Shown one piece after another: positions 4,859 to 54,300 of a stretch of DNA of 64,000 nucleotides. The notes under the pieces are model-generated. The model ran no database searches. It worked only from the letters and a program-made list of their open reading frames with translations, and was not told the DNA's origin. Position numbers and translations under genes: made by a program. Every line of letters begins with the position of its first letter. Positions within the stretch are counted from its first letter, which is position 1. The DNA comes from an uncultured Granulosicoccaceae bacterium (GTDB lineage Bacteria > Pseudomonadota > Gammaproteobacteria > Granulosicoccales > Granulosicoccaceae), in the NCBI GenBank assembly GCA_938020525.1, contig CALIHW010000003.1:1-64000 (forward strand), written 5' to 3'.

Positions 4859-5713
4859 ATGAAAAAGATTCTGATCACCGGGGCAAGTGGCTATCTTGCA
4901 CAGACACTGATTCCAGTCGCAGCATCACAGGCAGAAGTTACTGGCGTGGCACGAAATACCGAATCGATTAGAGACGAAGCAACTAAAATATCACTTGACA
5001 TAGAGGATCGGACTTCTGTAATTGATGTTGTCAATAGTCTCAAACCTGATGCCATCATCCACTGCGCTGCATGCAACCCGGGTGGCAGTGAAACTGCCAT
5101 GTTTTCCGTCAATGAACACGGTACCGGTAATGTCGCTTTCTCTGCCGCAAAGTCAGGATGCCGTTTTGTTTCCGTTTCATCAGATACTGTATTCAATGGC
5201 AAAGATGCACCATTTGATGATAACGCTCAAGCCTCTCCACTATCGAAAAACCTCTATGCCGTAAGCAAAGCTCGTGGGGAATCAATTGTGAGATCGCTCG
5301 TACCGACAGCTGCTATCGTGCGCACCTCCTTGATTTATGGCACAGACAAAATTGATCGCGGTACAGAAGGCTTCGTCAAACGCCTTGCTGCCGGCGCACC
5401 GTTAAAACTATTCAATGATGTTATCCGACAGCCGGTCAGTAGCCGCGCTTTATCACAAAGCCTGTGCACTCTTGCGTTGAAGCTTGTCGACGAAAGCGGT
5501 TTTATTAATATTATGGGAAATGAAGCTATGAGTAGATACACTTTCGGTGTGCGAATGCTGGACTACTGGGGTATCGACTATAGTGATCAGATTGAATCCA
5601 TCAGTGGTGTTGGCATTGAAGGTTTGCCCATAGATTTGCGGGTAACAATGAACAGAGCCGCACTACTGAAACTTCCTACTCCCGGGTTATCAGAGGTTTT
5701 GCCTGCCTGCTAG
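4859..5713 (+). CDS. RmlD-like NAD(P)-dependent sugar-nucleotide reductase
   Basis: A 284-residue short-chain (extended SDR) protein. The Rossmann motif is ITGASGYLAQTL (about 6-17), and the catalytic YAVSKARGE supplies the Tyr-x-x-x-Lys pair (about 137-145), preceded by SSDTVFNG. The overall pattern is that of the RmlD/dTDP-4-dehydrorhamnose reductase substrate-binding family, but no other rhamnose gene is nearby, so the sugar nucleotide is unknown. The stop codon TAG overlaps the CTAG at the left end of the MITE at 5710-5955; the coding sequence is not disrupted. Confidence 0.82.
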   Translation: MKKILITGASGYLAQTLIPVAASQAEVTGVARNTESIRDEATKISLDIEDRTSVIDVVNSLKPDAIIHCAACNPGGSETAMFSVNEHGTGNVAFSAAKSGCRFVSVSSDTVFNGKDAPFDDNAQASPLSKNLYAVSKARGESIVRSLVPTAAIVRTSLIYGTDKIDRGTEGFVKRLAAGAPLKLFNDVIRQPVSSRALSQSLCTLALKLVDESGFINIMGNEAMSRYTFGVRMLDYWGIDYSDQIESISGVGIEGLPIDLRVTMNRAALLKLPTPGLSEVLPAC

Positions 5714-5955
5714 GCTGCATTATTCATGAGGATTCGCCGTTCAGAGGCAATGTGGCTAAACAGGTCGGCCAATCGTTCGAGAAACGTGGCTTGCCACGTG
5801 CCGAGGGGGATTGGCCGAGATGTGACGCCAGATTTTCTTCTGGCGTCGAATAGACACACTGCTAACTTCGCTGACGGGCCCACAGGAGTGTTTGGAGCTT
5901 TATGTATAGCCTTTCGTTCTATCCTGTTGGTCGCCTCGTAAATAGTGCAGGCTAG
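5710..5955. mobile_element. MITE copy 1 (246 bp, CTAG ends)
   Basis: A non-coding element bounded by CTAG on both sides. The inner ends GCTGCATTATTCATGAG and (reverse complement of the right end) CCTGCACTATTTACGAG form imperfect terminal inverted repeats. The body holds a 10-bp stem TCGGCCAATC / GATTGGCCGA (5765-5774 and 5809-5818) enclosing ACGTGGC-TT-GCCACGT (5784-5799), plus a GACGCCAGA / TCTGGCGTC hairpin. The first 155 bases are nearly identical to the reverse complement of the element at 25320-25565, which is also 246 bp. The CTAG pair can be read as a 4-bp target duplication. No transposase is encoded. Confidence 0.85.
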
Positions 5956-5992
5956 GCTAGGAATTAGAACAGCGCCCAAACCATCTCTCACA

Positions 5993-6700
5993 TCATCCAC
6001 CAGATTTGGAGAGACATGATTTTAGAAACGGAATCGTAATTCGGGCACGACCTGCTGCCAGTGATTCACGATCAAGCAACGCGACAGTTTCCAGCAAGCT
6101 TGTAAGATCGCGACTATGCCTTTTTAGCAGGTAGTCAGTTGTCTCATCCGGCATTTGCAAACCTTTGCTATCGACTGCCAGTAAAAATGCCTGTCGCACA
6201 TCTGAGTCACTTAAGACATCCATTTTTATAACCGGCCCCCAACCAAGACGCGATTGCAGATCCGCAAGCTGCCACTCTGCGCTGGCAGGTGCGGCTGATG
6301 CACCGAATAAAATCTTGCCAGACTGTTCCCGACTGAAATTAATCAGATTGAACAGCGCTTGCTCCCAATCTTTATTTCCTGCGATGGCATCTACATCATC
6401 AATCGCAAGCAGTGCATACCCATCCAGAGATTCAAGCAAATCTGATGACAGTGATTGATCTTTTAGCGAGACGTAAAATGATCGCAACCCCAGAGCAACA
6501 AACTCATTGTAGGCGGCGAGCAATAAATGTGTTTTTCCACTTTGCGATGAACCCCACAGGTACAACTGACTGGTATCGGTGGTCGCACTAAGCTGTTGCG
6601 CCATTTTAACCGCCAGACTATTTGCACCGTGAAAATAATTACTGTAAGCCGGCACCACAGTTGGCGATAGTGGTAATGGCAGCTGCCGATGTTTAGACAC
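5993..6700 (-). CDS. hda: Hda, regulatory inactivator of DnaA
   Basis: A 235-residue AAA+ protein related to DnaA domain III. Near the N-terminus it carries QLPLPL, the clamp-binding motif that ties Hda to the DNA polymerase sliding clamp. The P-loop is WGSSQSGKTHLLL, and Walker B is LLAIDDVDAI. With the clamp it stimulates ATP hydrolysis by DnaA and so prevents re-initiation of replication. It lacks the DNA-binding domain IV of DnaA. It lies 18 bases after the DUF2066 gene on the same strand, in the conserved neighbourhood with purM and purN. Confidence 0.92.
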   Translation of the reverse strand: MSKHRQLPLPLSPTVVPAYSNYFHGANSLAVKMAQQLSATTDTSQLYLWGSSQSGKTHLLLAAYNEFVALGLRSFYVSLKDQSLSSDLLESLDGYALLAIDDVDAIAGNKDWEQALFNLINFSREQSGKILFGASAAPASAEWQLADLQSRLGWGPVIKMDVLSDSDVRQAFLLAVDSKGLQMPDETTDYLLKRHSRDLTSLLETVALLDRESLAAGRARITIPFLKSCLSKSGG

Positions 6701-25319: not shown

Positions 25320-25565
25320 CTAGCCTGGATAATTTATCAGGCGACAGGTAAATATTGGCGAAATACTATGTATACAGTTCCAAACCACTTTATTAGCACC
25401 TTTTTCAAAATAGCAGTGTGTCTATTCGACGCCAGAAGAAAATCTGGCGTCACATCTCGGCCGATCCTCCTCGGCACGTGGCGGGCCACGTTTCTCAGAC
25501 GATTGGCCGACCTGTTTAGCCAGATTTCCTCTGGACGCCGAATCCTCATGAATAATCCAGGCTAG
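25320..25565. mobile_element. MITE copy 2 (246 bp, CTAG ends), inverted relative to copy 1
   Basis: CTAGCCTGGATAATTTATC at the left and GAATAATCCAGGCTAG at the right are inverted repeats bounded by CTAG. Reverse-complemented, its first ~155 bases match copy 1 (5710-5955) nearly base for base, including the ACGTGGC-CC-GCCACGT hairpin and the TCGGCCAATC outer stem, which differs at one position. Between the copies the loop changed (TT to CC) while the stem stayed. The remainder is diverged. No coding capacity is credible. Confidence 0.85.
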
Positions 25566-42071: not shown

Positions 42072-42253
42072 CTAGCCCGGTTTATTCATGAAAATGACGG
42101 CATCCCGCTTGATCCTTGATTCCACAGCGAATTTTTTCTCTTGTAAATATCAGTAAGCCAAGTAAATGAAAACATGGAACGCGAGAAGGAAATGCCCTGT
42201 GAAACCAATGCGCTGCGCGCTATGCTCGCCATTTCACGAATAAACCGGGCTAG
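42072..42253. mobile_element. MITE copy 3 (182 bp, CTAG ends)
   Basis: CTAGCCCGGTTTATTCATGA at the left and (reverse complement of the right end) CTAGCCCGGTTTATTCGTGA form nearly perfect terminal inverted repeats of about 20 bases. The CTAG at both outer edges repeats the pattern of copies 1 and 2. The internal sequence is unrelated to theirs, so this is a different subfamily driven by the same kind of ends. No coding sequence is inside. Confidence 0.82.
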
Positions 42254-51357: not shown

Positions 51358-54300
51358 TTATAGATCACTCACTGCAACAACCACTGCAGCATCCTGGGCA
51401 ACTGACACATCAACAGTAGCTGAACTCATCGCACCTGATATATCAACGATTCCGTAATCAAAAGAGTCATCACCGAAAAAACCTGCAGCAGGTGTATAGG
51501 TAAGCACATCTGAGTCATCTACAGTCACTGTGCCATTCGTTGGCTGCAAAACAAAGTCAATCGCCAACACATCACCATCCGGATCTGAATCGTTGGCTAG
51601 TACGTCAATTACTACTGGCTCATCCTGATTAGTCACCGCCATGTCGTTCGCGGCAACCGGTGCTTGATTCGCAACAACCGGTGGCGCTGTCACTGTAATA
51701 CTCACTGCAGCCAGGTCTGTTGCAGCGCCATCACTGATTTCATAGACAAAGCTGTCTGGTCCGCTAAAACCCGCTGCAGGTACATACGTCACCGTGTTAT
51801 CCGCAGCCACAGTGGCAGTTCCATCAGTGGGGTCTGTGTCTATTGCCACCGTCAATACATCACCATCCGGATCAGTATCATTGGTAAGTACGTTTATTAG
51901 TATCGGTTCATCCTGATCAGTAACCGCAGTGTCGTTTGCTGCAACTGGTGCTTGATTAGTAACAACTGGTGGTGCTGTCACTGTAATACTCACTGTGGCC
52001 TGGTCCGTTGCAGTGCCATCACTGATTTCATAGACAAAGCTGTCAGATCCGCTAAAACCCGTTGCAGGTACATACGTCACCGTGTTATCCGCAGCCACAG
52101 TGGCAGTTCCACCGGAAGGGCCAGTATCTATAGTTACCGTCAAAGCATCACCATCTAGATCAGTATCATTGGCAAGCACGTTTATTTGTACCGGCTGATC
52201 CTGATCAACAATCGCAGTGTCGTTCGCGGCAACTGGTGAGCTATTTGTAGATGCAACAGTAATAGAAACAATAGCAGCGTCTGTCCCACCGTTGCCATCA
52301 TCTACCGTGTAGCCGATGCTGTCTGCACCACTAAAGTTTACATCCGACGTATATTGTATACGGTTGTCCGGTAATACGGTGGCGACACCATTAACCGGTG
52401 GAGTGGTCACTGTTACGGTTAAAGGATCACCATCCGTATCCGAATCATTTGCCAGTACGTTAAAGTTAACAACAACCCCCTGGGTTGCTTGAGCACTATC
52501 ATCACCAGCGGACGGCGGATTGTTTACTACCACAGCTGCTACCGTGATAGTTACAGTGGCAGTGTCGGTTCCACCGTTTCCATCTGCAACCGAATAGGTG
52601 AGCACATCAACCCCTGAAAATGTTGCATCCGGTGTATAGGTGATTTCGTTATCAGCCTGCACCGTCGCCGTGCCATCTGATGGAGGCGTGACAATAGATA
52701 CAGTCAAAGTATCACTATCAGGGTCCAAGTCATTGGCAAGCACGGCAATAGTAACCACCCCTCCCTGACTTACCTGAACAGCATCCGCCTGAGCTTGCGG
52801 GGCAACATTGACACTGGCGACACTATTTACTGTCACTGTAACTGTCGCAACAGCTACACCACCGTTTCCATCACTGATTTGATAAGTAAAACTATCGGTG
52901 CCGGAAAAACCAGCATCCGGGCTATAGACAATAACTTCACCTTGCGCGGTAATTGAAGCCGAACCGTTTGAAGGTTGTGTCAACACAGACAATGTCAGCG
53001 AATCACCATCCGGATCGGAGTCATTTTGCAACACCTGCACGCCAACCGGGTCACCCTCTTCAGTAGATCGAGTATCGTCCACTGCAACCGGTGCAGCGTT
53101 GGTATCACTTACCAAAACTGTTACAGCACCTGTATCAGTACCACCATTACCATCGTCTATGACATAACTGAAACCGGCTGTACCGCTAAAGGAGTCTGCC
53201 GGCACGAAGGTCACCGTATTATTAGCATTAATAGTCGCGCTGCCGGAGCGGGTATCCACAACACTTGTTACTGAAAGACTGTCACCATCCGGATCACTAT
53301 CATTGCTCAACACATCAATTACTACCGATGTCTCTTCACTTGTGCTGGCGTTATCATCATTGGCAACCGGTGCAGCGTTGGTGTCACTTACCAAAACTGT
53401 TACAGCACCTGTATCAGTGCCACCGTTACCATCATCTATGACATAACTGAATTCAGCTGTGCCACTGAAAGAGTCCGCCGGCACGAAGGTCACGGTATTA
53501 TCACTGTTTATAGTGGCACTTCCGGAGCGAGCATTGCTAATAGATGCGACAGTAAGATCGTCTCCATCGGGATCCGTGTCATTGCTTAGTACATCAATAA
53601 CTACCGGGTTGTCCTCGTCAGTGCTTGCGTTATCATCATTAGCATTAGGCGCATCGTTAACCGAACTCACATTAACAGTTACCTGATCCGTGGTTTCAAC
53701 TGTGCCATCACTAACGGTATAACTAAATCCATCACTGCCACTGAATCCATCGTTCGGGGTATAGCGGACTTCACCACTCGACAGCAACACCACCACACCG
53801 TTAGAAGCATCACCAACACTGACGATACTTAGTGCATCGCCATCATCATCTGCATCGTTGGCAAGCAAATTAAAAACACCACTGGTATCTTCCGGTACAG
53901 ATATTTGATCTACACCAATAACTGGCGCGACGTTAACAAATACCACGTTCACCACAACAGTAGCAGTTGCGCTATCAGCGCCATCGGTGATTGTGTACTC
54001 AAAGGAATCCGGTCCAAAGAAACCGGCTTCCGGTGTATAACGAACTGTACCACCAGAAATAACAGTGGCAGTTCCACGCAAAGGGCTCGCTACAGATTCC
54101 ACAGATAATGTGTCGCCTTCAGCATCTGAATCATTCGCCAACACCTGCACCACAACTGATGCATTTCTATTGACAGAGATATTGTCGTTAACAGCAACAG
54201 GAGCATCATTCACATTGACAACGTTGATCGTCACGTTTGCATTTACAGTCAGACCACCTGAGTCTTGTACAGTATAAGTAAAGTTGTCCTGACCAATAAA

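Follow-up and report, generated by a model that had tools for sequence, protein, structure and literature searches.

What is the 246-bp sequence that begins within a stop codon in an uncultured Granulosicoccaceae bacterium, what moves it, and is its conserved body maintained as DNA or as RNA? The sequence lies in a contiguous stretch of 64,000 nucleotides (the whole of the DNA analysed, hereafter the window), which comes from a metagenome-assembled genome (MAG) of 4.53 Mb in 224 contigs, 93% complete. It consists of CTAG, 238 bp and a second CTAG, exactly 246 bp in total (positions 5710-5955; Table 1). The first CTAG overlaps the end of an RmlD-like gene (4859-5713, to the end of the open reading frame; Pfam RmlD_sub_bind), and the element sits in the gap ahead of a convergent Hda-like gene.

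Elements in the window and in the genome

A preliminary description of the window reported two elements of 246 bp, inverted relative to each other and sharing about 155 bp, and a third element of 182 bp with the same ends. All of these are present. The copy at 25320-25565, also exactly 246 bp long, is inverted relative to 5710-5955 and has 155 nt in common with it at 92%; the copy at 42072-42253 combines the ends of the 246-bp copies with a different body. With lengths of 246 or 182 bp, terminal inverted repeats of 16-18 bp and no plausible internal gene, these elements are MITEs in size and layout.

Table 1. Coordinates of the window element, its parts and the other two copies in the window
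Feature	Position	Strand	Evidence or remark
Left target duplication, CTAG	5710..5713	.	Sequence; TAG at 5711-5713 is the stop codon of the RmlD-like gene
Left terminal inverted repeat, GCTGCATTATTCATGA (consensus CCNGGNTTATTCATGA)	5714..5729	+	
Conserved hairpin of the long family, putative RNA read from the + strand	5732..5851	+	Alignments, covariance model
UAA/GAC internal loop in the window hairpin	~5757-5759/5824-5826	+	
Tandem G.A in the window hairpin	~5779-5780/5803-5804	+	
Right terminal inverted repeat, CCTGCACTATTTACGA	5936..5951	-	
Right target duplication, CTAG	5952..5955	.	Sequence
Second long-family copy, CTAG to CTAG	25320..25565	-	Hairpin ~25424-25543 on the - strand; long-family covariance model, 154 bits
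Short-family copy, CTAG to CTAG	42072..42253	-	Hairpin on the - strand within 42092-42233; short-family covariance model, 127 bits

A BLAST search of the same genome started with the window element yields 41 matches (best E-value 4e-136), and the pattern of the ends is found 193 times, whereas its reversed control gives 26. With a covariance model built on the long core, 52 copies are identified, and there are about 25 short ones, so that the elements are dispersed in the manner of MITEs, with copy number and end matches far above chance. Thus, the genome-wide search with the end consensus that had been proposed as a check recovers many copies with CTAG flanks, and the suggestion of a non-autonomous family is borne out by many-copy elements that contain no plausible gene.

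Alignment was carried out separately for the long family (20 copies from this genome, 238-269 bp inside the duplications) and the short family (25 copies, 159-174 bp). The length steps of 15-16 bp are largely accounted for by tandem duplication of GTCTGAGAAACGTGG or by a small 5' insertion. One long element (L051:1064-1354, G000:C62) has a doubled end, CCTGGATTATTCTAGCTGGATTATTCATGAG, which looks as though the end of one element had landed beside or within that of another. MITE repeats such as these two families disrupt MAG assemblies and can now be annotated with the covariance models. Elsewhere in the window, tandem direct repeats of 288 and 279 nt that are 60-85% alike (51562-53630) probably belong to a gene with repeated domains.

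Target site

CTAG is palindromic, so that this sequence alone does not separate a target duplication from a part of the end repeat. Among intact copies with non-palindromic flanks, the flanks are direct repeats in seven of seven cases and inverted repeats in none (two TTAG cases in the genome studied here, two TTAG and two CTAA in genome G007, and TTAG at an insertion sequence (IS) in genome G060). In a complete genome (G040), four near-identical IS copies are flanked by CTAG, CTAG, CTAA and TTAG. Since the TTAG and CTAA flanks repeat directly, CTAG is a 4-bp target duplication located outside the terminal repeat, as the preliminary description considered probable. The flank variants further imply that the target is YTAR with a strong preference for CTAG, rather than CTAG only as originally put.

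At one site (L047), relatives are contiguous at the gene ends with a single CTAGTTAA containing one CTAG, and the genome studied here has about 170 bp of further DNA, so that the comparison does not give a clean empty site. This segment (L047:1776-1950, G000:C53) is bordered by CTAG on both sides, adjoins a long element, and is absent at the same place in two relatives; it is possibly a second insertion without recognisable ends. Although CTAG is the preferred target, the window contains few such sites: 45, when trinucleotide counts predict about 107 and base composition predicts 247.

Conserved hairpins

Both families encode a hairpin of 115-130 nt with strong covariation. In an alignment of 60 long elements from the genus, compensating changes occur throughout the core, and the consensus derived from 37 cores contains 39 pairs. 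The nested hairpin noticed earlier is therefore real and is far larger than described, its consensus pairs extending over 5732-5851. The long family shows 151 double-change cells compared with 54 +/- 7 after shuffling and at most 36 when the partners are slid; 94.5% are paired, compared with 34-50% when slid. The alifold value is -42.5 compared with -3.1 +/- 1.9 for shuffled columns, and the complementary strand gives -21.5. The long-core model detects 2-53 copies in each of 14 members of the genus; two genomes from a second genus contain 88 and 4. For this second genus, which was outside model building, the same hairpin is obtained de novo (-68.5, complementary strand -41.4) with different stem sequences. 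Both genera retain two internal loops, UAA opposite GAC and a tandem G.A, which are recurrent RNA loop motifs.

The short family, which is on the minus strand in the window, can be aligned with elements from Sedimenticola and from Dokdonella, in which the species Dokdonella immobilis has a short copy (L132). Its covariance model has matches in 22 of the 229 genomes sampled evenly over the class, representing 20 genera, and most of these matches show CC ends with CTAG-like flanks. In a set of 20 sequences from outside the family of the source organism, covering about 20 genera, 32 of the 42 pairs show compensatory changes, with 133 double-change cells compared with 41 +/- 5 after shuffling. The alifold value for the short family is -57.5; the complement gives -23.9 and column shuffles give -0.1. 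Thus, covariation in both families exceeds that of the shuffled controls (and, for the long family, of the slid ones), as expected of a structured RNA.

A search of Rfam gives no match at or above the gathering score and only sub-threshold microRNA and snoRNA hairpins. The two families accordingly add two uncatalogued, strongly covarying folds, probably of RNA, with recurrent internal-loop motifs. Around the window copy, no promoter-like or terminator-like site was found in 5600-6100, and an independent small RNA gene with its own promoter and terminator is unsupported in this interval.

The same CTAG and CC ends enclose other MITE bodies in Planctomycetota (L105, L136, L156, L200), Nitrospira (L145, L151) and Verrucomicrobia (L149). 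Each of these elements folds as a whole-element hairpin.

Selection on RNA or on DNA

These hairpins could also be read as features of an ordinary MITE: selection or mutation would act only on a DNA palindrome or cruciform, template switching between the arms would mimic covariation, and RNA would be irrelevant. Whole-element hairpins are indeed common in these families, and long stem-loops have been described for all bacterial MITE families (PMC2229807). In single elements examined in a strand-neutral register, the excess of G.T is weak, mostly not significant, and too weak alone to decide. However, G.U outnumbers A.C by 34 to 11 in the class set (about 20 genera) and by 115 to 16 in the second genus; the counts in the first genus are 48 and 31. 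Because the G.U count on the given strand is biased by folding, these pairs were instead selected on a fold of the opposite strand, which works against the RNA hypothesis. Furthermore, the tandem G.A and the UAA/GAC loop are kept in two genera in which the surrounding stems have changed, and the complementary strand folds much more weakly. The purely DNA-based explanation is thus rather unlikely, although mutations that correct DNA palindromes could have produced part of the covariation. The strand asymmetry suggests that selection likely acts on RNA, which provides a testable case of a bacterial transposon with an RNA shape under selection.

Insertion sites and stop codons

The association with stop codons was assessed by counting genes of at least 100 codons that end exactly at the target, with other CTAG sites as the control. 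A stop coincides with the target at 13 of 83 half-sites in the genome studied here (14 of 269 control CTAGs, p 0.004), at 12 of 50 in relatives (3 of 130, p 2e-5) and at 26 of 68 in other phyla (90 of 665, p 2e-6). Gene interiors are avoided: six elements of this genome are inside genes and 34 elsewhere, compared with 91 and 33 control sites (p 7e-11), and the excess at stop codons is mostly due to this avoidance. Among permitted sites, a preference for stops is significant in relatives (p 0.002), with p 0.08 in other phyla. For the genome studied here, a true stop preference beyond avoidance of interiors is not significant (12 stop and 22 intergenic sites compared with 8 and 25 in the control, p 0.43). 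The duplication restores TAG or TAA, so that, judging from the sequence, insertion at a stop codon would leave the protein unchanged, which accounts for the harmless placement of such elements.

Flanking genes mostly face the antisense side of the hairpin, in 22 of 31 cases for the long family (22 vs 9, p 0.03) and in 17 of 28 for the short family (17 vs 11). A simple sense role at the 3' end is therefore not favoured, and a function of the hairpin in the sense 3'-UTR was rejected, the orientation of flanking genes being biased the opposite way.

The probable transposase

The ends were initially thought to recall those of IS1380, and a search for a full IS with matching ends was suggested. Such an IS, 1695 bp long with the same ends and CTAG on both sides, is found in a congeneric Granulosicoccaceae genome (L202:1196-2890). 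Its transposase belongs to the IS1380 family (PF13701, E-value 5e-121; NF033539, 360 bits, the cut-off being 180), in agreement with that guess. A cyanobacterial IS (L101:3386-5003) has CTAG at the left end and TTAG at the right end, and its transposase matches PF13701 with an E-value of 2e-129 and scores above the NCBIfam IS1380 cut-off. The MITE and the IS are identical at 18 of 18 terminal base pairs, and the agreement is confined to the terminal 16-18 bp; the idea that the MITE is an internally deleted IS is therefore rejected.

When 84,980 species genomes were scanned for the end pattern, carriers were identified, among the matches listed, in Planctomycetota, Myxococcota, Nitrospira, Cyanobacteria, Armatimonadota, Acidobacteria and many Proteobacteria. 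In 11 of 24 other carrier genomes there are IS1380-type genes (9 above the cut-off), several of which adjoin CTAG and CC ends; IS1380 genes beside such ends occur in Nitrospira, Mesorhizobium and Lentisphaerae. These results tie a very widespread bacterial repeat family to one transposase family. A literature search with the end sequence gave no useful match.

In the MAG studied here (93% complete; repeats are lost in MAGs), there is no match to PF13701 and none to the L123 protein. Given that no IS1380 transposase is present in the assembly, we infer that the elements would be mobilised in trans. Genome G014, from another genus of the family, has 88 long RNA cores in 4.5 Mb and no IS1380 transposase that could be found, a burst without a visible mobiliser.

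The structure accompanies IS1380-type ends and persists in more than 20 genera, and might thus be an RNA that works within the mobile system, as a regulator or cofactor of the transposase or of a nuclease. The IS copies searched lack the long RNA, however, and to our knowledge no RNA use is known for IS1380 transposases, so that we regard such a role as unlikely. The lack of a transposase in the assembly, together with the intergenic and stop-codon sites and the conserved structure, would likewise suit a domesticated regulatory repeat of the NEMIS/ERIC kind, with a host function and no longer mobile. This too has a low probability, as recent mobility fits the intact ends and target duplications, the varied sites of the 2-53 copies in each genome of the genus, and the occurrence of both orientations. 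Duplication of CTAG or YTAA is not enough to identify the family: MITEPsy1 of Pseudomonas syringae shows it too, and its assignment, given with a query mark, is to IS5 (PMC3189936). Mobilisation here by an IS5-type or other YTAR-targeting family, with the IS1380 match a convergence of short ends, is nevertheless highly improbable, given that the ends of MITEPsy1 start with GGAAGG and those described here with CC, and that exact matches over 16-18 bp lie on either side of IS1380 genes in a congeneric genome and a cyanobacterium, with similar ends in other phyla.

Proposed mechanism

Taken as a whole, the observations are very probably best explained by a non-autonomous IS1380-type MITE with a selected hairpin body. 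The enzyme would be a DDE transposase of the IS1380 family, which related genomes encode and which this genome either lacks or has in an unassembled part; it would recognise the 16-18-bp ends (CCNGGNTTATTCATGA) and insert the element at YTAR, nearly always CTAG, duplicating the 4 bp. The target contains a TAG or TAA stop, and copies would survive at gene stops and intergenic sites. The body is a hairpin of about 120 nt rather than a shrunken IS, its pairing apparently kept by selection. Most likely the pairing matters in an RNA made from one strand, with selection acting on this RNA and not on the DNA. Possible roles of such an RNA include, for example, a target of RNase III or of another protein, or a modulator of read-through.

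More tentatively, IS1380-type mini-transposons might spread structured RNAs that are outside Rfam through Gammaproteobacteria, and via analogous elements through Planctomycetota, Nitrospirota, Verrucomicrobiota and others, with the fold being selected because it aids movement, regulates the element or makes insertion at gene ends harmless.

Comparison with known systems

Published IS1380 elements have ends of 16-21 bp and repeats of 4-5 bp; for example, ISPa33 is 1561 bp long with 16-bp ends and a 4-bp repeat (PMC4133298). Members of this family (ISPa33, ISPsp9; PF13701/NF033539) resemble the MITEs described here in the ends starting with CC and the 4-bp duplication, and their transposase is of the same family as that of the partner IS. 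Unlike these IS, the MITEs are geneless and have in common with them only 16-18 bp, the structured body being unrelated. The eukaryotic piggyBac elements, for which IS1380 is an outgroup, duplicate TTAA and have ends that start with CCC (PMC10813416). The 4-bp target of the TTAA type and the CCC start are thus similar, whereas the MITEs are bacterial, their target is CTAG/YTAR, and the body is an RNA-like hairpin.

The Correia/NEMIS, ERIC/IRU and RUP repeats are likewise 100-250 bp long, with end repeats, a duplicated target that contains TA, and a long stem-loop, but they differ in the ends and the transposase; for the elements described here, deep covariation and the retention of non-Watson-Crick loops were measured over a whole class. 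MITEPsy1 is also a MITE that duplicates CTAG/YTAA, but it is 100 bp long, with GGAAGG ends of the IS5 type (PMC3189936). The Coxiella QMITEs are similarly gammaproteobacterial, with stable stems and one copy at a gene 3' end; they differ in that no link to IS1380 is made in PMC5896051 and in that the direct repeat of QMITE2 varies from copy to copy.

In a search of open-access papers, neither an IS1380-type MITE family nor such a structured RNA was found. All bacterial MITE families have been described as forming long stem-loops in transcripts, with a role of RNase III proposed for NEMIS (PMC2229807), so that the kind of element is already known; a transposon-borne RNA family with a selected fold is what may, with some reservation, prove to be new beyond it.
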